Part shown: positions 23,113-37,276 of the stretch, piece after piece | How positions within the stretch are numbered: the first letter of the stretch is position 1 | How the letters are laid out: each line of letters starts with the position of its first letter | DNA from: Clostridiales bacterium | Lineage (GTDB): Bacteria; Bacillota; Clostridia; Christensenellales; Borkfalkiaceae | DNA length: 40,054 nt | Reading direction: 5' to 3' | NCBI GenBank assembly: GCA_015069495.1 | Contig: SVIN01000016.1 | Coordinates: forward strand, 1 to 40,054 | Translations under genes and position numbers: made by a program | The notes under the pieces: generated by a model | The model's input: the letters and a program-made list of their open reading frames with translations, nothing else | The model's database searches: none | Told to the model about the DNA's origin: nothing

Positions 23113-25800
23113 TTACTCATCCAAGCCATCCCAACGCTCATTTTTCCACAGATATTTTTGCGGAATTTTTTTCACGTACGGACTGGGTTTTAGGCGTTCC
23201 CGCCCATTATACAGCGCGCGGGTTAAAATCAATTTTTTCTTCGCGCGGGTGATTGCCACATAAAACACTTTTTCCTCGCCGTCCTCGTTATCGCCTTTGG
23301 CGTAGAAGTTTGGAAAGTTTCGCTCATCCGCGCCTGCCACGATTACGGTATCAAATTCGCACCCTTTTGCATGGTGAACGGTCAACAACGGAATGCGGTT
23401 TTCCTTGGCAACCAACAAATCCCCGCGGCTGCCTGAAAGGTCGGCATTTTCAATAAACGCGCGGAAAAAATTTTCGGTATCCTTTGCGGAAGTCTGACGA
23501 AAATAGGCAACTACTTCCCGCAGAGCCCGACGGTTGACGTCCGTTTTACAGTATTGTTCCATGCGCATCGTCTCTACGATGGCATTCACGATTTCGTAGG
23601 GCGTTTCACTTTTCATGCGCCGTTGTAAATCCGTGAAAAATAAATAGAATTTTTCAAATTTTTCCTTGTGCTTCGCACAAACGTTTTGCCGTTCCATGGC
23701 GGTGGGAATCACATCCTCAGCAATCATACGCGCCAACACTTTTCCCGTTGCCACGATATCACCGTAGGCATTGTGCGCCGCTTCGTTGATTATGCCATAT
23801 TTTTGACAAAGCGTAGACAAACGGAAATCGGGCAATTCTGCATGGAACTGTTTCGCAATCGTCAAGGTGTCGTATTCGGCTTGCACCTCTAATGGGGGCA
23901 AACCATTGTCTTTCAGTTGGCGTTTAACGAGCGGAGCATCAAAACGGAAGCTGTTATGCCCCACCAACACTCCACCCTTGACAAAGTCGGAAAAGTCAGC
24001 CAACGCCTCTTTTGCCGTCACCCCGCCGTGGGTGTGGATATAGTTCAAATCAAAACCATGGGTCGCGTATGCCCCCTCGCCAATTTCCACCGTGGGGATA
24101 ATCATACGTTCAAAGGTTTGTACAACGTTCCCGATGCTGTCAATACGGATTGCCGCCAACTGCACCATCTCATCCTTGTCCAAACCCAACCCCGTCGTTT
24201 CGGTATCATAGACGATGATATCCCCCTTGCGAGAAGCTTCCATCAATACATGGTATGGGTCTTGGTGGTCGTAGGTCTGCTTATCCAAGAAGGAAACGAT
24301 GGATGCGCCGATGCGATTTTGCAAGCGCAAATACTCGATCGTTTTCATACCAACCAATCGCACGTACTTTTCCGCGATGCGTTCCATGCTGATACGGTCG
24401 GTCTTGTTGAGGAGCAATTTGATGACCGCCACCACGTCTTTCACGATGGGATTGCGGTAAAATTTTTGATCCTCTTCCGCGGTAAAAAAGCGCAATCGCT
24501 CCGTTTCGGGGTAGCCATCGTTACATTCTTCAAACACCCGCGCGAGCATGGAAACGTAAAAATTCGACCGCGCAATCACGCAAATGGAAGTTATGCCTTG
24601 TTCAAGATTTTTACGGATATAGCGGTAAATTTGCCCCGCCTCTTCGCGGCGGTTGTCAAAACCCACGCAGAGAATTTTCTCCCCCGCGTCTTGGCTGTTC
24701 ACCACAATATCCTGCGGGCAGTATTTCCCCACCAAATCGGGATAAGTCGCCCGAAGATAACCAAAGGTCGCCCCCGTCAAGGTTTGGGTCGAACGGTAAT
24801 TTTGCGAAAACATATATACTTTCGCGCGGTAATTGCGGATAAAATCATCCAACACGTATTCGGGTTTCGCGCCCCGCCAAGCGTAAATGGATTGAAAGAA
24901 ATCCCCGCACATCATCACGCGATTGTTACCGAAGAGTTGCTTTAACACCGAGTATTCTAATAGGCTGGTATCCTGCATTTCATCCACGATAATATACGCA
25001 TAACGCGCCGACCAGCGCGCGCGGATTTCCTCGTTTTTCAAGCCTTGGCAAGCGAACAAAATCAGGTCGTCGTAATCCACGCGATTGCTTTGCCGAAGAT
25101 GGTCGCAATAAGCAAATACCAGCTTCCCCGCATGCTTTTGCATGGCGGTTTCAAAGGCTTCATCGCATACCTGGGTATGCCCTTTGCCTGCAATCGACAT
25201 GCTTTGCAGGTAAGCTTCCACGTGGTGTTTGGCATAAAAATCAAACGCGCGCTGAAAATCATCCGCCTCGTTTTCGGTGTAGAAATTCTCTTCCTCGCGC
25301 ACGTGTTTTAGTGCGCTGACGAAGTTACGAAGCTTACCGTTTTTGGCAAAAATTTCAAACTGTGTATCGGGTATATCCTCATCGAAAGAGGTTTCGGCAT
25401 CGCCGTTTTCCCACAAGCAGTATTGGGAAGAAAGAATGCTTTTGAGGATTTCCTCGGCATCCGATTCATCACATACAACAGCATCAAGGTAACGTGCGTC
25501 TTTACGGCGGGATTCTTCCCGCATCAGTTGGTAGCAAAAACCGTGAATGGTGCGAATTTCCACCTCGTCCGCGGATTGTCCAACGTAGCGCGCCACGTCC
25601 TCGCGCATCTCGTCACATGCTTTGACTGTAAAAGTCAAACAAAGAATTTCATTGGGATTCGCGCGGTTTGTTTGAATGATTTGACTGACGCGCTTTGCTA
25701 CGGTGAAAGTTTTACCCGTACCCGCACTGGCAAATAGAATGAGATTGTTGTCAAGGTCTTCAATAACCCGCAATTGTTCCGCGTTCGGTTGACGATCCAT
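23113..25800 (-). CDS. UvrD/PcrA-type helicase with an embedded DEDDh 3'-5' exonuclease domain
   Basis: 895 residues from the ATG at 25800. Helicase motifs: Walker A 'ASAGTGKT' (24-31), Ia 'LTFTVKACDEM', II 'IIVDEMQDTSL' (~270), III 'GDFFQSIYAWRGA' (~299), IV 'QNYRST', V 'LTVHHAKGCEFDTVIVAG' (~806) and VI 'FYVAITRAKKKL' (~846). Between IV and V, at ~526-690, sits a complete DEDDh exonuclease: 'VYDTETTGLG' (Asp532, Glu534), 'GHNSFRFDAP' (Asp621), 'HNAYGDIVATG' (His676, Asp681). Such a domain usually occurs as a separate DnaQ/PolC-like unit. An upstream in-frame ATG at 25857 is rejected because it lies at the -35 box of a consensus promoter; GGGGGAAAGG precedes 25800. It leads an operon with SbcD- and SbcC-like genes, so it should process DNA ends. 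Confidence 0.9.
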   Translation of the reverse strand: MDRQPNAEQLRVIEDLDNNLILFASAGTGKTFTVAKRVSQIIQTNRANPNEILCLTFTVKACDEMREDVARYVGQSADEVEIRTIHGFCYQLMREESRRKDARYLDAVVCDESDAEEILKSILSSQYCLWENGDAETSFDEDIPDTQFEIFAKNGKLRNFVSALKHVREEENFYTENEADDFQRAFDFYAKHHVEAYLQSMSIAGKGHTQVCDEAFETAMQKHAGKLVFAYCDHLRQSNRVDYDDLILFACQGLKNEEIRARWSARYAYIIVDEMQDTSLLEYSVLKQLFGNNRVMMCGDFFQSIYAWRGAKPEYVLDDFIRNYRAKVYMFSQNYRSTQTLTGATFGYLRATYPDLVGKYCPQDIVVNSQDAGEKILCVGFDNRREEAGQIYRYIRKNLEQGITSICVIARSNFYVSMLARVFEECNDGYPETERLRFFTAEEDQKFYRNPIVKDVVAVIKLLLNKTDRISMERIAEKYVRLVGMKTIEYLRLQNRIGASIVSFLDKQTYDHQDPYHVLMEASRKGDIIVYDTETTGLGLDKDEMVQLAAIRIDSIGNVVQTFERMIIPTVEIGEGAYATHGFDLNYIHTHGGVTAKEALADFSDFVKGGVLVGHNSFRFDAPLVKRQLKDNGLPPLEVQAEYDTLTIAKQFHAELPDFRLSTLCQKYGIINEAAHNAYGDIVATGKVLARMIAEDVIPTAMERQNVCAKHKEKFEKFYLFFTDLQRRMKSETPYEIVNAIVETMRMEQYCKTDVNRRALREVVAYFRQTSAKDTENFFRAFIENADLSGSRGDLLVAKENRIPLLTVHHAKGCEFDTVIVAGADERNFPNFYAKGDNEDGEEKVFYVAITRAKKKLILTRALYNGRERLKPSPYVKKIPQKYLWKNERWDGLDE

Positions 25801-25828
25801 TTGCCTTTCCCCCATTTTGTTTGGGGAT

Positions 25829-25857
25829 ATTATAGCATGGCTTATTTTTCTTGTCAA
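25829..25857 (-). promoter_or_regulatory. Promoter of the helicase/SbcCD-like operon
   Basis: Minus strand: TTGACA (25852-25857), exactly 17 nt, TATAAT (25829-25834), a perfect housekeeping promoter. The start site should fall near 25822, leaving ~22 nt of leader with the ribosome site. Confidence 0.85.
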
Positions 25858-25908
25858 TACTTTTATAAATAAAAATCATTCGTAGGAAGTTTTAATGCGC
25901 TCCTCTAT

Positions 25909-26062
25909 ATGGCTTCTCTTGCGAGAGAAGCTGTCCTGAGAGTGAAACGTAGTGAACCGAAGGGCTGATGAGTAGTCGTGCAAAGTCAGGTGCACACCTC
26001 ATCAGTCATTCAGCTCGTTAGCACTTCGCGTTCATGACAGCTTCTCCCACTGGAGAAGCCAT
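25909..26062. repeat. 154-bp foldback (MITE-like) element, copy 1
   Basis: Begins ATGGCTTCTC and ends GAGAAGCCAT. The two halves form an imperfect inverted repeat of ~65 bp with CTGATGAG / CTCATCAG near the centre. Each end contains its own small hairpin (CTTCTC-ttgc-GAGAGAAG; CTTCTCC-cact-GGAGAAG). The central loop holds GTGCA...TGCAC. Copy 2 at 27154-27307 has the same length and orientation. There is no transposase here. Confidence 0.75.
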
Positions 26063-26085
26063 CATTGCAGTATTCCCCCACCTCT

Positions 26086-26310
26086 TGCCGTTGGAAAATG
26101 TGAGGAAGACTAGCGGAAATCGAAGGAGTGTACAGAGAGGTACATGACTGAGATTGACGCGCCGTATTACGGGTTATACTCCTCCATCTTGCCGTGGGAA
26201 AATGCAAGTAAGACGAGGAGCGCGCGGATTTCTCGACGGGAGCGTACAGAGACGTACGTGACCAAGAGAAAACGCAAACGCGACAAAGTATGACGTAGCA
26301 TTTTATAGGC
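26086..26310. repeat. Two diverged copies of the GTAC-hairpin repeat
   Basis: Unit 1 (~26088-26180) and unit 2 (~26200-26310) match the triplicated repeat at 30031-30370. Both contain GGAAAATG, 'AGTAAGAC'-like and GGAG-[stem]-AGAGR-[stem]-TGAC blocks. In unit 2 the outer stem is TTTCTC/GAGAAA and the inner stem CGTAC/GTACG; in the other copies they are CGGAAATC/GATTTTCG and TGTAC/GTACA. The changed stems still pair. The right end, TTTTATAGGCAAAAA (26301 onward), abuts the T-run of the ncRNA terminator. Confidence 0.7.
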
Positions 26311-26344
26311 AAAAAAAATTAAACCCCTGTCTATTCGGCAGGGG
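26311..26344 (-). terminator. Intrinsic terminator of the candidate large RNA
   Basis: Minus strand: CCCCTG pairs with CAGGGG around a 9-nt loop, followed by TTTAATTTTTTTT (complement of 26311-26323). Confidence 0.85.
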
Positions 26345-26973
26345 CTTTATACACATATTCAGTTGTAAGAATGCAGTCACTTTTTACTATCCGTGTCTTT
26401 TCGAACTCAATTTCGGATTACGGTCTTATGCCGCGCTGTGGTATTTACGGATATTTTCCTATTTGCATTCCTCACATGTAAAGTTCATTGGACTGTTACC
26501 TCGCTTTATCTTCTTTGTTAAAGTACCTTTTTGACGTCGGGATATAAATCATCGCTCGCGTACCTCCTTTAACAAATTTTTCAACCGCTTCCGACCTCTC
26601 GTCGGTAGGCTTTACGTGTACGTCGGAGTATCCCCGTCCTTTTTAGTTTTCATTGAAGTTACAACAATCATCGTCGTATACCTCCTTTTCACCTATTTCC
26701 CGCTACTCTCGTTTTGCGGTTACGCCTTCGAAACATACACAAGATGGCTCTTGTTGCGCTTTCGCGCTGGGCTTAGGTTAATTCTATTTAGGCGTTAGCC
26801 TCCAAATGGGAAGGAATCATCGCTTTTCGTACCCTCCTTTTTCGTACTCTTTCGCCGTATCCCTACGGCACTTTGCCAACTCTCTCCTTGTTTGGCGAAT
26901 GTTTTATTTGTTCATTGGATTTTCCTCTTTTTTGAAAAGTTGAAACATTTTTTGTTTGTTTCTTTCTTTTTGT
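26311..26973 (-). ncRNA. Candidate ~660-nt structured RNA with embedded Shine-Dalgarno/AUG modules
   Basis: A minus-strand transcription unit between a consensus promoter (26980-27007) and an intrinsic terminator (26311-26344), with no ORF longer than 19 codons in sense. Hairpins visible directly: GCCGTA-GGGA-TACGGC, GCGC-GAAA-GCGC (both GNRA loops), CCGAC-5 nt-GTCGG, GCCAA...TTGGC, TATCCGT...ACGGATA, and TGTTAAA...TTTAACA, which encloses an AAAGGAGGTAC site. Five micro-ORFs each follow a Shine-Dalgarno-like site: 26904-26915 (MNK), 26788-26820 (MIPSHLEANA), 26612-26671 (19 aa, MIVVTSMKTKK...), 26496-26552 (18 aa, MIYIPTSKRYF...), 26459-26488 (MNFTCEECK). Modules 2-4 share AAAGGAGG...CGATGATT. 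It could be an ornate large RNA (the OLE, GOLLD, HEARO and ROOL classes exist; I cannot assign it) or a micro-peptide operon. Confidence 0.65.
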
Positions 26974-26979
26974 ACCTTT

Positions 26980-27007
26980 ATTATAGCAGAAAAAAATCAT
27001 TTGTCAA
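26980..27007 (-). promoter_or_regulatory. Consensus promoter of the candidate large RNA
   Basis: Minus strand: TTGACA (27002-27007), 16 nt, TATAAT (26980-26985), with a TGC extended -10. A/T-rich DNA with long A and T runs lies upstream (27010-27052), like an UP element. Among the strongest-looking promoters in the window. Start expected near 26973. Confidence 0.85.
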
Positions 27008-27153
27008 GGGGTTTTTGAAAAAAAGTTTGAATTTTTTTAAAATTTTTTTTCGCAGGGGGATTTTTGCGGTATATGTTATATTACTGTGTGCAACGTCAGG
27101 TTGTCCCCCCTGCTGTCACTCTGGAGCGTAGCGATAGAGTCTCTTCCCGCAAT

Positions 27154-27307
27154 ATGGCTTCCCTTGCGAGGGAAGCTGTCCTGAGAGTGAAACACAGTGA
27201 ACCGAAGGACTGATGAGTAGTCGCTCAACGTCACGTAAACGCCTCATCAGTCATTCAGCTCGTTATCACTTCGCATTCACGACAGCTTCTCCCGCTGGAG
27301 AAGCCAT
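27154..27307. repeat. 154-bp foldback (MITE-like) element, copy 2
   Basis: Same length, ends and orientation as copy 1 at 25909-26062. Most differences are in the central loop. The two copies flank the candidate RNA. Next to it, at 27333-27360, is a strong hairpin with GGGCGGTC/GACCGCCC stems, a type also found at 18376 and 37390. Confidence 0.75.
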
Positions 27308-27378
27308 AAGCACTGCATGAAGAAAGCAAAAAGCGGGCGGTCGAATTTTCGACCGCCCGCCAGTGTTCCGCTGGACCT

Positions 27379-27535
27379 TATATAGAGTGTTATGACTCTT
27401 TCTTTATTTTTCTTCGCATATCACAGTGAATGCACGAGGCTTTCTACAAACACGTAGGAAAAGACACCTTACTGCCTGCAAGCTCAGCTTGCCCACAACG
27501 CCCGCAGGGCATATCGCATTATGCAAAGCCCGTTG
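27379..27535. repeat. Dispersed repeat unit followed by mini-hairpins
   Basis: TATAGAGTGTT...CTTTCTTTATTTTTCTTCG (27379 on) and CAGTGAATGC are shared with 3611-3662. The unit at 27432-27476 ends in AAGACACCTTACTGC, as at 3531, 3662 and (with TAGC) 37427. Hairpins GCAAGCT-c-AGCTTGC and GCCC-gca-GGGC and the spacer ATATCGC follow, in the same order as at 37493-37532. Confidence 0.7.
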
Positions 27536-33844: not shown

Positions 33845-36800
33845 ATGAAAACAACACACAACAACCGCAAGAGTAAGTTTCTTGCATTCCTTTTATCGGT
33901 GATGATGGTTTCTACCGCTGGCGCAATGTTTGCGTCTTGCGCTGACGGTGACGATTCCTCCTCTTCTACGTCCAGTTCGGAAGAAACGAAAGAAGAGGAA
34001 GAAACCAGAACGGATGACGGCGTCATCAAAAATGCAAACTTTGATTTCACCAAAATCAACACCAAAACTGTCATCGGCACTTCCGTTACGGGTTGGAGCC
34101 GTTCGGTAAATTCGTCTCGTAACGCTTCCAACTCGGCAAGCGGTGTCATCGATACCGCTAAGTGGGATTATATGACGACAACCACAAAGACGAAAGAACA
34201 ATTGGAAGCAATGTCCGAAGCAGACGTTATTGCTATTTGGGATGATTTAACCGCGCAAGATAAATTGACCTACTATGACGTATGGAAAGCGAAAGAAGAA
34301 AACAAGGGTAAAACCTTGTCCACTTCTACGTTTGAAAAATATGAATCGTTGAACGTAGACGCGGAAGATTTGAAACTTCCCGCAAACCCTGGCACGCACA
34401 CAGTTGCTGAAGGTGAAACGTTGGATTCTAACGTCTTGATGATTCACAACAATTACTACTACAGCAGTACCTCGAAAGACAAGCCTATCGGTACCGCGCA
34501 GAAGTGGACTTCCTCTTCTACCGTAAACGTACCCGCAGGTACTTCTGCGAAAGTTTCCGTTTGGGTGAAGACGGCGGATTTGAAAATGTCCGCGACGGGT
34601 ACCCCTTCCGAACACGGCACGCAAGACGCTGTCGGTAAGGGCGCGTATATCAGCCTTACCCACTCGGTTGGCGGTAAGTCGTTGGATGCATACGAAGTAA
34701 AGAACATTGACGTAGACGATTGGACGCAATACACCTTCTACATCAGAGGTTCGAACTATGCGGAAACCACCTATTCGTTGGTGCTTGGTTTGGGTCAGGG
34801 TGACGAATCCAACCGTTTCGAATACGTAAACGGCTTTGCATTCTTCGATGATATTCAATGCGAAATCATTGAAAATTCTGAATTTGAAACCGCAACCAAA
34901 GACAACGAAACCATCAAAGGTTTGACAGACGACAAAATCCAAAAATCCTTCGACGCATACGAAATGCCTGACGCAAAGGTATTCGGTATGGATTTTGCTA
35001 CTGCAGATTGGGGAAAAGCTGAACTTACCTCGCTTACCGTAAAAACTACGGAACAAGAAGACAATGTAAGCAAAAACCCTACGGCAAGTGATAAAGACGT
35101 TATCAAGGTTGGCAAGAAAGCAGATTTCAATGATGCAAACAACAGCAACCTTAAAATCGTATACGACAAGTTCCTTGAAGCAGAGGGCGACAATGATTTC
35201 GTTACCGCTGACGATGAAATCTTCTTGATGCTCAGCAACAACGGTACGGCTTACACCGTAGACAACGTGCTTTCCAACGACAAGATTACCTTGGCAAAAG
35301 GTAAAGACTACATGGCAATCTCCTTCTACGTGAAGACGTCGGATATGAACGGCGGTGTCGGCGCAGGCGTTACCCTTACGGATGCTTTGAACAAGACTTC
35401 GTTCTCCTCGATTGATACCACGGATATCGCAAAGGTAAAAATCGGTGACGACGAAGACGCTTACGATGGTTGGCAGAGAGTATTCTTCTTCATCGAACGC
35501 GGTGAAGATGCAACGGAAGAAGACATTCCCCTCTCCTTGACCTTCAACTACGGCCCTACCGATATCCTCAGCAGTACGTCGGCTGACAGCTTCCAACAAG
35601 GTTTTGCAGCATTCACCAAATTCGAAGTATATTATGATATGTCGGAATTGGAATACGAAGCGGCAACGACCGGCACGTACGCAAAGAAAGTAACCGTTTT
35701 CGGTGAAAAAGCGGAAGAAGCAGCTGGCAACGGTGGTTTCGATACGGCAGTAACCGTACCCAGCGACGCTTTGGAAAACGGCGGTTATGCAAACCTTCAA
35801 AATTATAAGGGCGTTTACAACGACAGCTACCGCGTGTCCTTGCCTACGGCAAACGAAAGCGCAGCCGATAAAGAAGCAAAACGCGCATACAATAACTATT
35901 TTGATAAAGACGGTAAAGCATTGGCAGGTCTTTTGAATAGAGAAAATGTAAAAGAGGGTGAAACCTGGGCATACGGCAACGCAACCCAACCCCTCGTTAT
36001 CGACAACTCTGGTTTGACGACCAAATCCTACGGTTTCATCGGCAACACCAAATCGTTGTCCGAAGAATATACGGCAATTTCCCTTCGCGTTATGACGACC
36101 GAAGGTGCAAAAGCTTCCGTATACCTCATGGATATGAGCGACGAAACCCGTCAAACGGTATTGTCTGTAGGCAGATCCCTCACCTACTGGTACGATGCAG
36201 ACGGTAACCTTTGCACCGATGACAATGGTGAAATGGGCGCGATTGCATTCAACCTTGATAAGAGCGGTTTGTACAAGGCAAACAAGAACTGGGTAAACTA
36301 CAGCAAGCTTAATAACTTGAAAGATGCTTACTTTGCAAACCTTAACGCTTACACGGAAAAAGACGGCATCCTTTACGCAAACGAAAACAGTGCAAACCAC
36401 TACTATGCGGCATACAACTGGGAACGTGAAGTATTCTACAAGCACGAAAACGCTTGGTACACCGAACCCAACGGACAAGGCGTTCGCGTATACAACCTTG
36501 CAGACATCACCGAAAAAATGGGAAGTTCCTCGTTGTTGAAAGCACGTTACTTGCCCACTACCGCTCAGGAATTGAAGATTGAAAACATCTCTTCTGACAA
36601 TAAGTGGACAACCGTTACCTTCTACATCCGTAAGGGTGAAAGTGCGAAGGATTACCGCTTGGAAGTTTGGAGCGGTACGCGCGACGGTAAGACGGTCAAC
36701 ACGAAAGGTATTGTTGCATTCGACACAAACAACCCCGGTACGGCATCCAGCAACTTCGACACGTTGATTGAAGAATTTGAAGATACCGCAACCTCGAAAT

Positions 36801-37276
36801 TCGACGGCGTATTCTCCTACTTCGATACCGATATGCACGTAAGATTCGATGCAGAAAAGGATACCGAAAAGAGAGGCAACGCATACGAAGACAATGCAAA
36901 GGCTACCCTCGCTTCGGAAGCAAGCACCGCTTACTTGAAACATTACAGCGATGCAACGGGTTACAACGTATTTGCTGATTACAGCTTGTCCGACAAGACG
37001 GTTGCAGCAAGCGAACAGACGGATGACGATCATGACCACGAAGACAGCTCGGATGAAGAAACCACCGCAAGCGCAGCAGACGGTTGGTTGCTTGCAAGCT
37101 CGATTGCAGTTGCAGCTGTACTTGTCTTGGCAGTAGCAAGCGTAGCCGCTCGTAAGATTCTGGACAAAGTTCGCAGAAACCGCGGTAAGAAAGTTCGCAA
37201 AGAAAAGGCAGAAAAAGCGCCTAAGCAGAAGAAAGTTGAAAAGACTGTTGACGAAGACAGCCCTTACAATGACTAA
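33845..37276 (+). CDS. Large secreted, membrane-anchored protein with jelly-roll-like repeats
   Basis: 1143 residues; family not recognised. Residues 1-31 form a signal peptide ending 'AGAMFA-SC'; Cys32 followed by an Asp/Ser-rich stretch suggests a lipoprotein, though Phe at -3 is unusual. Three regions share a phrase of the form '[YW]..[IV]S[FVL].V.T......V....' followed ~50 residues later by 'W..[YV].F[YF]I..G' and an acidic 'F..F...': ~210-335 ('VSVWVKTADLK', 'WTQYTFYIRGSN'), ~480-600 ('ISFYVKTSDMN', 'WQRVFFFIERGED'), and ~750-960 ('ISLRVMTTEGA', 'WTTVTFYIRKGES'). These look like carbohydrate-binding-type beta-sandwiches. A His/Asp-rich linker precedes a membrane helix (~1080-1103) and a 40-residue Lys/Arg-rich tail. 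Codon use avoids TTA, CTA and TCA, hinting at high expression. It has its own promoter and terminator. Confidence 0.85.
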   Translation: MKTTHNNRKSKFLAFLLSVMMVSTAGAMFASCADGDDSSSSTSSSEETKEEEETRTDDGVIKNANFDFTKINTKTVIGTSVTGWSRSVNSSRNASNSASGVIDTAKWDYMTTTTKTKEQLEAMSEADVIAIWDDLTAQDKLTYYDVWKAKEENKGKTLSTSTFEKYESLNVDAEDLKLPANPGTHTVAEGETLDSNVLMIHNNYYYSSTSKDKPIGTAQKWTSSSTVNVPAGTSAKVSVWVKTADLKMSATGTPSEHGTQDAVGKGAYISLTHSVGGKSLDAYEVKNIDVDDWTQYTFYIRGSNYAETTYSLVLGLGQGDESNRFEYVNGFAFFDDIQCEIIENSEFETATKDNETIKGLTDDKIQKSFDAYEMPDAKVFGMDFATADWGKAELTSLTVKTTEQEDNVSKNPTASDKDVIKVGKKADFNDANNSNLKIVYDKFLEAEGDNDFVTADDEIFLMLSNNGTAYTVDNVLSNDKITLAKGKDYMAISFYVKTSDMNGGVGAGVTLTDALNKTSFSSIDTTDIAKVKIGDDEDAYDGWQRVFFFIERGEDATEEDIPLSLTFNYGPTDILSSTSADSFQQGFAAFTKFEVYYDMSELEYEAATTGTYAKKVTVFGEKAEEAAGNGGFDTAVTVPSDALENGGYANLQNYKGVYNDSYRVSLPTANESAADKEAKRAYNNYFDKDGKALAGLLNRENVKEGETWAYGNATQPLVIDNSGLTTKSYGFIGNTKSLSEEYTAISLRVMTTEGAKASVYLMDMSDETRQTVLSVGRSLTYWYDADGNLCTDDNGEMGAIAFNLDKSGLYKANKNWVNYSKLNNLKDAYFANLNAYTEKDGILYANENSANHYYAAYNWEREVFYKHENAWYTEPNGQGVRVYNLADITEKMGSSSLLKARYLPTTAQELKIENISSDNKWTTVTFYIRKGESAKDYRLEVWSGTRDGKTVNTKGIVAFDTNNPGTASSNFDTLIEEFEDTATSKFDGVFSYFDTDMHVRFDAEKDTEKRGNAYEDNAKATLASEASTAYLKHYSDATGYNVFADYSLSDKTVAASEQTDDDHDHEDSSDEETTASAADGWLLASSIAVAAVLVLAVASVAARKILDKVRRNRGKKVRKEKAEKAPKQKKVEKTVDEDSPYND

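Follow-up and report, generated by a model that had tools for sequence, protein, structure and literature searches.

The question raised by this locus is what a strongly promoted RNA of about 660 nucleotides might do when it holds no conventional gene. The window is the whole stretch of DNA that was analysed, 40,054 nucleotides of contig SVIN01000016.1 from a Clostridiales bacterium. A preliminary description of the window had claimed a consensus promoter (TTGACA-16-TATAAT with a TG extension) and an intrinsic terminator. Both are present. The promoter matches the consensus at 12/12 positions, 27007-26980 on the minus strand, and the terminator arms CCCCUGCCGAAUAGACAGGGG-UUUAAUUUUUUUU are seen in the sequence at about 26344-26311 and are paired in the predicted fold. 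This terminator is absent from the list produced by a simple terminator scan. Together with an excess of structure, these signals delimit one transcription unit on the minus strand, 26973-26312.

26312 to 26974, minus strand: the entire RNA of about 660 nt, with its start near 26974 and its end within the U run, placed from the sequence, the fold and homologues of like outline.
26980 to 27007, minus strand: promoter TTGACA-16-TGCTATAAT with an extended -10 element, 12/12 consensus.
26311 to 26344, minus strand: intrinsic terminator CCCCTGCCGAATAGACAGGGG followed by a U run, seen in the sequence and paired in the predicted fold.

The RNA was also said to be highly structured. This is borne out by a folding energy below that of dinucleotide shuffles (z -4.6, 20 shuffles) and by four covarying helices. 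Ten of 34 related members were examined in the same way and gave z values of -4.3 to -11.3 (20 shuffles each), one of them, L014, being folded beyond its own end. The statement that no sense ORF exceeds 19 codons is correct for ATG starts, while one TTG ORF has 20 codons. The sole sense ATG ORF of at least 20 codons starts at 27000, ahead of the transcript.

The RNA fits no Rfam 15 family, in line with the failure of the preliminary description to match it to a known class. The 4227 Rfam 15 models gave 0 matches in the window at the gathering score, and at E<=10 all matches in 25800-27500 were far below the cut-offs. On nine related loci, Rfam gave one neighbouring tRNA, one sub-threshold match and nothing else. 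ARAGORN found no tRNA or tmRNA in the window. tmRNA is likewise a structured RNA with a tiny ORF, but the tmRNA match of this genome lies elsewhere (G000:C10), and tmRNA was rejected as an identity for the RNA.

For comparison we used 34 members, which remained after 19 near-duplicates were removed from 53 extracted loci. L006, L022, L034 and L036 had been dropped, as the script found no promoter in them. This set was extracted by requiring the promoter and so gives no independent proof of promoter conservation. A 5' covariance model that begins after the promoter returned 30 loci, 27 of which have the 12/12 promoter with TG; of the remaining three, one is truncated by the contig end and two are without a script anchor.

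Five conserved short ORFs of 3-19 codons lie between the promoter and the terminator, three of them with exceptional Shine-Dalgarno (SD) sequences. SD strength is expressed against a reference of 137 long ORFs, taken from 27 related loci and the window itself. Some of these ORFs may be spurious, and the start with the best SD was chosen for each, a choice in favour of the reference.

26904 to 26915, minus strand: ORF0, ATGAACAAATAA (MNK, stop), in the motif CC[A/G]ATGNAC, an ORF of 2-4 codons in most members.
26788 to 26820, minus strand: ORF1, MIPSHLEANA, stop, with the SD AAGGAGGG at 26839-26832, among the strongest 3.6% of 137.
26612 to 26671, minus strand: ORF2, MIVVTSMKTKKDGDTPTYT, stop, with an SD at 26688-26680, among the strongest 2.2%, which could pair with GATACTCC at 26632-26625.
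26496 to 26552, minus strand: ORF3, MIYIPTSKRYFNKEDKAR, stop, with an SD at 26570-26562 inside GTTAAAGGAGGTAC (26573-26560), among the strongest 2.2%.
26459 to 26488, minus strand: ORF4, MNFTCEECK, stop, with the SD GAGGT (26502-26498) within the last codons and stop of ORF3.

The SD of ORF4 is among the strongest 20% of the 137, and that of ORF0 is ordinary, with 61% of the reference ORFs at least as strong. ORF4 is present in all 34 members. Its SD lies inside the last codons of ORF3 (GCG AGG TAA), a layout that recurs in other genera (GGAAGGTAA, GTGAGGTAA). Modules made of an SD, an ATG and a short ORF number 3.4 per RNA on average (34 members, range 1-6) against 0.23 in dinucleotide shuffles; the window RNA has three, against 0.18. 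In these counts nested starts are separate, and L014 and L015 were counted beyond their ends. The second codon is NAC (AAC, CAC or GAC), as part of CC[A/G]ATGNAC, in 27/33 ORF0 and 34/34 ORF4 sequences, compared with 3/24 window genes, and TAC takes this position in ORF4 of other genera. We take these to be queuosine-type codons.

Several of the strong SDs can pair nearby. The SD of ORF1, AAGGAGGG, is complementary to TCCTTCCC within ORF1 (26815-26808), and the arm GTTAAAGGAGGTAC that contains the ORF3 SD pairs with GGTACTTTAAC (26527-26517). The mean unpaired probability of the SD is 0.27 for ORF1 (32 members) and 0.29 for ORF2, against 0.45 in 94 long ORFs that were folded in a different, shorter context. 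For ORF3 and ORF4 the values, 0.42 and 0.43, come close to the 0.45 of the ordinary long ORFs.

The helices and the tail motif are as follows.

26932 to 26966, minus strand: 5' hairpin GAAAGAAAC..ACAAAAAAUGUU, conserved and covarying (z -6.3, 0/20000).
26875 to 26896, minus strand: hairpin A, GCCAA...UUGGC, from the sequence and the 5' alignment A1.
26854 to 26869, minus strand: hairpin B, GCCGU-AGGGAU-ACGGC, covarying (z -5.8, 0/20000) with compensatory pairs.
26367 to 26473, minus strand: helix P1, GAGGAATGCA (26473-26464, the last codons of ORF4) with TGCATTCTT (26375-26367), the strongest covariation (z -8.3, 0/20000).
26389 to 26452, minus strand: 3' junction-closing helix, ATCCGT (26452-26447) with ACGGAT (26394-26389) (z -5.4, 0/20000).
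26356 to 26365, minus strand: tail motif CAACTGAATA, which separates P1 from the terminator, nearly invariant in alignment A2.

In the 5' alignment, RNAalifold finds 6/18 pairs with compensatory changes. Consensus folding of the 3' alignment gave no pairs, in our opinion because MAFFT misaligns two sequence classes, and we therefore turned to an alignment-free permutation test. For six helices, which were proposed from the same sequences as were tested, the duplex energy of each member's own arms was compared with that of arms swapped among species in 20,000 permutations. The ORF3 SD hairpin scored z -3.4 (9/20000; 28/34 members), and the ORF2 SD pairing was not significant (z -1.7, 948/20000; 24/34 members). 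The pairing of the ORF1 SD lies beyond covariation testing because the start region is nearly invariant. The ORF3 hairpin is the only one of the SD pairings backed by covariation. A column scan for covariation was too noisy for use. Alignment A2 has 33 rows, without L009, and for the permutation test the tails in L009 and L027 were placed manually. The tail motif, also written CAACUGAAUA, was found by script in 32/34 members, and as AAYTNAATA in 28/30 loci returned by the 5' model. Variants of one or two bases occur in some other genera, and most of the relatives printed have a GC-rich hairpin after the motif.

The preliminary description had expected an RNA of this kind to have homologues that preserve the helices. 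Four helices covary, as given above, and homologues are found both in the genus and in related genera. A DNA search matched 32/61 genomes, comprising 31/37 in the genus and one weak match elsewhere. The exact ORF1-start pattern occurs in 27 contigs, all titled as Clostridia or Clostridiales metagenome-assembled genomes, the animal-titled ones being from deer, sheep and goat gut. The same pattern occurs in 0 viral contigs, in a search that may omit records very near the window. Phage cargo was considered and rejected on this result, on the lack of a match to a phage record and on the conserved chromosomal place of the RNA.

The 5' covariance model finds the RNA in 51/57 genomes of the genus and in 12/12 near-complete ones; in the three weakest of these twelve (G001, G029, G080), ORF0, an SD-ORF, ORF4 and the tail were all read. 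The host belongs to an order that we take to be Christensenellales. Applied to 396 genomes of the order, the model matched 11, all of the same family, four being of this genus and seven of two other genera. These seven loci (L091, L092, L094-L098) have the promoter, an SD-ORF, ORF4 (partly by our reading) and, behind the tail, a GC-rich hairpin. The tail reads AAYTNAATA in L095-L098 and differs from this by one or two bases in L091, L092 and L094. The hairpin of L095 is without a T run, the T run of L091 is short and L096 is without a clear ORF0.

A model of the promoter and leader, R2, was derived from 29 sequences out of those available. It matched 139/151 genomes of the family at E<=0.05, but plain promoters matched too. 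Among its best 30 places, 11 are new and outside the genus, all with promoter, ORF3 and ORF4, and the script found the tail in eight; ORF4 of L113 and L116 was read by eye from the sequence. Twenty further stretches indicated by R2 were fetched and read. The RNA is present in genera g145 (L135-L137, L142), g29 (L138, L140), g26 and g28 (L143-L146) and, in divergent form, g1 (L147, L148). The ORF3 ATG is absent from L135 of g145. Among the 20 stretches, five from g30 (L130-L134) hold a variant, L139 and L141 hold no such RNA and L129 holds an ORF0-like site only.

A pattern search of the order matched 8/396 genomes, six in the family together with G152 and G044. By our estimate less than one match in 396 genomes is expected by chance, and a reversed-pattern control gave 0 among the matches listed. 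We read the match in G152 as an ordinary protein gene, and that in G044 as a real-looking relative. The G044 locus, L158, is the sole relative outside the family and has a promoter-like TTGACA..TAAAAT, an ORF4 with an SD (MYHSINKSEEFVN, stop), the tail AAATTGAATA and a terminator. A strict family pattern matched 0/151 genomes, and a class pattern matched 0/391, but the latter misses the window itself and so says little. The RNA ranges over five genera of one family (g1, g26, g28, g29, g145), with a variant in g30, and occurs once in another family of the order. Across the divergent relatives the promoter and SD-ORFs are kept, and the tail motif and terminator are mostly kept.

The number of modules varies within this range. 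In the short members L014, L020 and L023 the ORFs are limited to ORF0, ORF4 and a single fusion of ORF1 with ORF3, L025 has ORF2 in two copies, and L120 of g26 has three repeats (MTFK, MTYT and MTYT, each followed by a stop). The g30 loci L130-L134 contain arrays of mini-ORFs, mostly of 2-6 codons (MIA, MFA, MTA, MKA, MV and MYRNRS, each followed by a stop), with one ORF of 24 codons in L133. Most of the g30 mini-ORFs are followed by CCCTCCAACG..GAACGG..GGAGGTAAAATAAGTTC. The anti-SD-like CCTCC of this element could pair with the SD, or could form an H-type pseudoknot with GAAC/GTTC. In our reading of the sequences, pairing with the downstream strand is favoured by one copy in L132, which reads CCATCC..GGATG. 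The g30 RNAs contain neither ORF3 nor ORF4 nor the tail, and only the promoter, the 5' leader and the mini-ORFs speak for their homology. Lineages would tune the RNA by gaining or losing modules, of which the script counts 1-6 in the genus.

What is kept within the ORFs can be seen from spacing and codon changes. The spacing from the ORF3 ATG to the pairing arm is measurable in 31/34 members. It is 21, 24, 27 or 30 nt in 25/31 when the first start is taken automatically, and five more are in frame by our reading when the SD-spaced ATG replaces an earlier ATG or GTG; L027 is without the arm. Codons with a single change show a synonymous excess in ORF1 (187 to 219, 0.46 vs 0.24 expected), ORF2 (43 to 63, 0.41 vs 0.25) and ORF4 (65 to 164, 0.28 vs 0.18). 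In ORF3, 34 synonymous changes stand against 122 non-synonymous ones (0.22 vs 0.21 expected), counted in 27 members from equal-length pairs within 35% difference, which are not independent. The excess may be compatible with a peptide function of ORF1, ORF2 and ORF4, and RNA structure overlapping the codons could cause part of it. The ORF0 peptide varies (MNK, MHK, MDN, MKYK, MTYT). Judged by these comparisons, the predicted peptides drift while starts and stops are kept, and amino-acid conservation is uneven among the ORFs.

The defining conserved elements of this RNA are predicted translation starts, that is an SD, an AUG and an in-frame stop after 2-20 codons, together with the ORF3/ORF4 coupling and the multiple-of-three spacing of ORF3. 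The preliminary description was right that the RNA is real, structured, strongly promoted, conserved and unmatched in Rfam, and its assignment to the non-coding style of OLE, GOLLD, HEARO and ROOL fails on the conserved translation starts. Our best reading of the sequences is that this may be a new class of RNA whose function would depend on translation. We propose that this free-standing, strongly promoted, structured RNA may have to be translated in order to work, its likely role being that of a ribosome-loaded decoy or a free-ribosome sensor, and we give this reading a probability of roughly 0.4. Comparison among relatives supports the predicted transcription signals, SD-ORFs, ORF3 frame, coupling geometry and covarying helices, and a wide conservation with variable module number. 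We infer the abundance of the RNA, its occupancy by ribosomes, its switching and its output as decoy or sensor.

In the mechanism that we envisage, the near-perfect promoter would give one terminated transcript bearing several very strong translation starts. Each of these would open a mini-ORF with between a few and 20 codons. Nearby stretches, often in the ORF itself, could pair with the strong SDs. Ribosomes would enter when free 30S subunits are plentiful, and translation of a mini-ORF would melt its own hairpin. A ribosome ending ORF3 would land on the SD of ORF4, and one ending ORF4 would have to open P1, the closing helix of the 3' domain. Ribosomes would thereby be held by the RNA, and its shape would shift with translation capacity. 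Masked SDs would be superfluous in a plain ribosome sink, a point against this reading. A more specific form, an array of start modules with ribosome availability as input, in which partly masked SDs load only when subunits are in excess and the traffic changes the shape of the RNA, is tentative and we consider it less probable than the general reading.

The strongest competing explanation places the function in the peptides themselves. The RNA would then be a polycistronic mRNA for micropeptides whose structure only tunes translation; we regard this as a possible explanation, somewhat less probable than the array of start modules. The chief candidates are the peptide of ORF3, which is basic-aromatic (..RYFNKE.. 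in this genus, ..YFAR../..LFCR.. in g26), and that of ORF4 (MN.../MY...). Conservation of frame and stops agrees with such an mRNA, as do the synonymous excess in ORF1, ORF2 and ORF4 and a Y-F/S/Y..K motif that is kept where the SD3 pairing is weak (L010, L026). It fits poorly with ORF3, which has no synonymous excess, and with ORF0, which has 2-5 codons of changing sequence. The ORFs marked in the five g30 loci, 2-6 codons long bar the one of 24, are too short for a likely peptide function, and the number of modules varies freely. The nearest precedent for an RNA that acts by way of a strong-SD mini-ORF is CreT, the RNA toxin of CreTA (PMC8501985). As outlined in that source, CreT has one efficiently translated mini-ORF of 4-6 codons, two of them rare, with a stem-loop behind it, and CRISPR-Cas represses it. 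The likeness is that the RNA described here is also proposed to be a small RNA acting through efficient mini-ORF translation and a stem-loop. A strong SD, an efficient start codon, a mini-ORF and a downstream stem-loop are among the needs of CreT that PMC8501985 lists, and ORF1-3 indeed combine an AUG with SDs among the strongest 2-4%. Sequestration of particular tRNAs as peptidyl-tRNA would also accommodate the near-constant second codon NAC of ORF0 (27/33) and ORF4 (34/34). The codons at that position are however common (per 1000: AAC 22, CAC 10, GAC 29, TAC 21), the several mini-ORFs of the window contain no consecutive pair of the rare codons AGA, AGG, ATA, CGA or CCA, no cas family was found among the 10 window proteins scanned, and the RNA is in nearly all genomes of the genus and not patchy. 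A CreT-type action is unlikely on these grounds.

No better placed is a leader acting in cis, in which translation of an upstream ORF would control terminator read-through into the next gene. Upstream ORF, helix and terminator make the outline of a classic attenuator, and the ilvB and fthC motifs, as presented in PMC11109978, likewise join a short ORF with an SD, helices and a terminator in one unit, placed ahead of a main gene that is constant. The gene that follows in the window is on the same strand and encodes a UvrD-type helicase. This gene has its own extended promoter, 12/12, at 25857-25829 on the minus strand, and the gene after the RNA is not constant among the loci compared. A UvrD-like helicase follows in L004 and L005 only, an MreB-like gene on the opposite strand in L014 and L015, and, in our reading, SbcD in L006; short flanks limit this comparison. 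An attenuator of the next gene is rejected for this variation, and from the changing neighbour and the helicase's own promoter, action in trans is likelier than control of a neighbour. The upstream side is more uniform, with an MreB-like gene on the same strand in 34/52 locus rows, some rows being two copies of one place, and behind it often Maf and Ppx (Pfam names). A stand-in for the lost ribosome hibernation factor HPF/RaiA was suggested by the distribution of PF02482, which was not found in 16/16 genomes of the genus nor in 10/18 genera of the family, while it was found in 9/9 genomes of other families of the order. HPF occurs in 51/151 genomes of the family (f1), in 8/18 genera, with no match from g1, g26, g28, g30 or g145, where the RNA or its g30 variant is present. 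The g29 genomes G465 and G486 carry HPF together with an RNA that has ORF3, ORF4 and the tail (L138, L140), which refutes a strict replacement, and some genera without HPF have no clear RNA match. HPF loss may have been a single event, and a hibernation RNA is improbable. We think the same of an untranslated ornate RNA in the style of OLE, GOLLD, ROOL or HEARO with incidental SD-like motifs. That style would suit the RNA in size and structure and in the absence of a conventional gene; the module counts against shuffles, the frame-kept spacing, the coupling of ORFs across genera and the absence of an Rfam match speak against it. The least probable proposal, to the point of being negligible, is a sponge that titrates CsrA through repeated GGA motifs. 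Such motifs are numerous in the RNA and in part lie in hairpin loops, as does AGGGA in hairpin B, but PF02599 was found in 0/37 genomes drawn from the genus and the order (15 are at least 90% complete), in a search whose control detected it in 3/14 genomes, E. coli and B. subtilis included. The sponge is rejected for these genomes, as far as the PF02599 model detects CsrA.

The RNA that we read as working through its translation also differs from other known systems. The dual-function small RNAs RNAIII and SR1 are structured RNAs with a small ORF, usually one, whose peptide is conserved, whereas here there are several modules, changing peptides and helices that include codons. Structured bacterial RNAs are sought mainly as non-coding. 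A pipeline that separates coding from non-coding sequence could miss this RNA because it is both structured with covariation and built of conserved starts. In its size, structure and free-standing nature, and in having no conventional gene, it resembles OLE, GOLLD and ROOL as they are presented in PMC12286853, but it has no Rfam match and has conserved translation starts. No description of such an RNA was found in the open-licence literature on ribosome sponges, ornate RNAs, minigenes, mini-ORFs and dual-function RNAs. If it works as proposed, it would naturally gauge or buffer the supply of ribosomes, and the number of modules would offer a simple handle on how a cell senses its translation capacity. 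The family of gut Clostridia that carries it is known here from metagenome-assembled genomes.

Three further features of the window were noted. The UvrD-type helicase (23113-25857, minus strand, 914 aa) has an RNase_T exonuclease domain (548-708) nested in UvrD_C (348-880). At 33845-37276 on the plus strand a protein of 1143 aa has, in our reading, a signal-like stretch at its N-terminus and a hydrophobic segment at its C-terminus, with no Pfam match at E<=1e-5. A direct repeat of 161 nt, 89% identical, lies on both sides of the RNA gene, at 25902-26062 and 27147-27307, and looks like a dispersed repeat.
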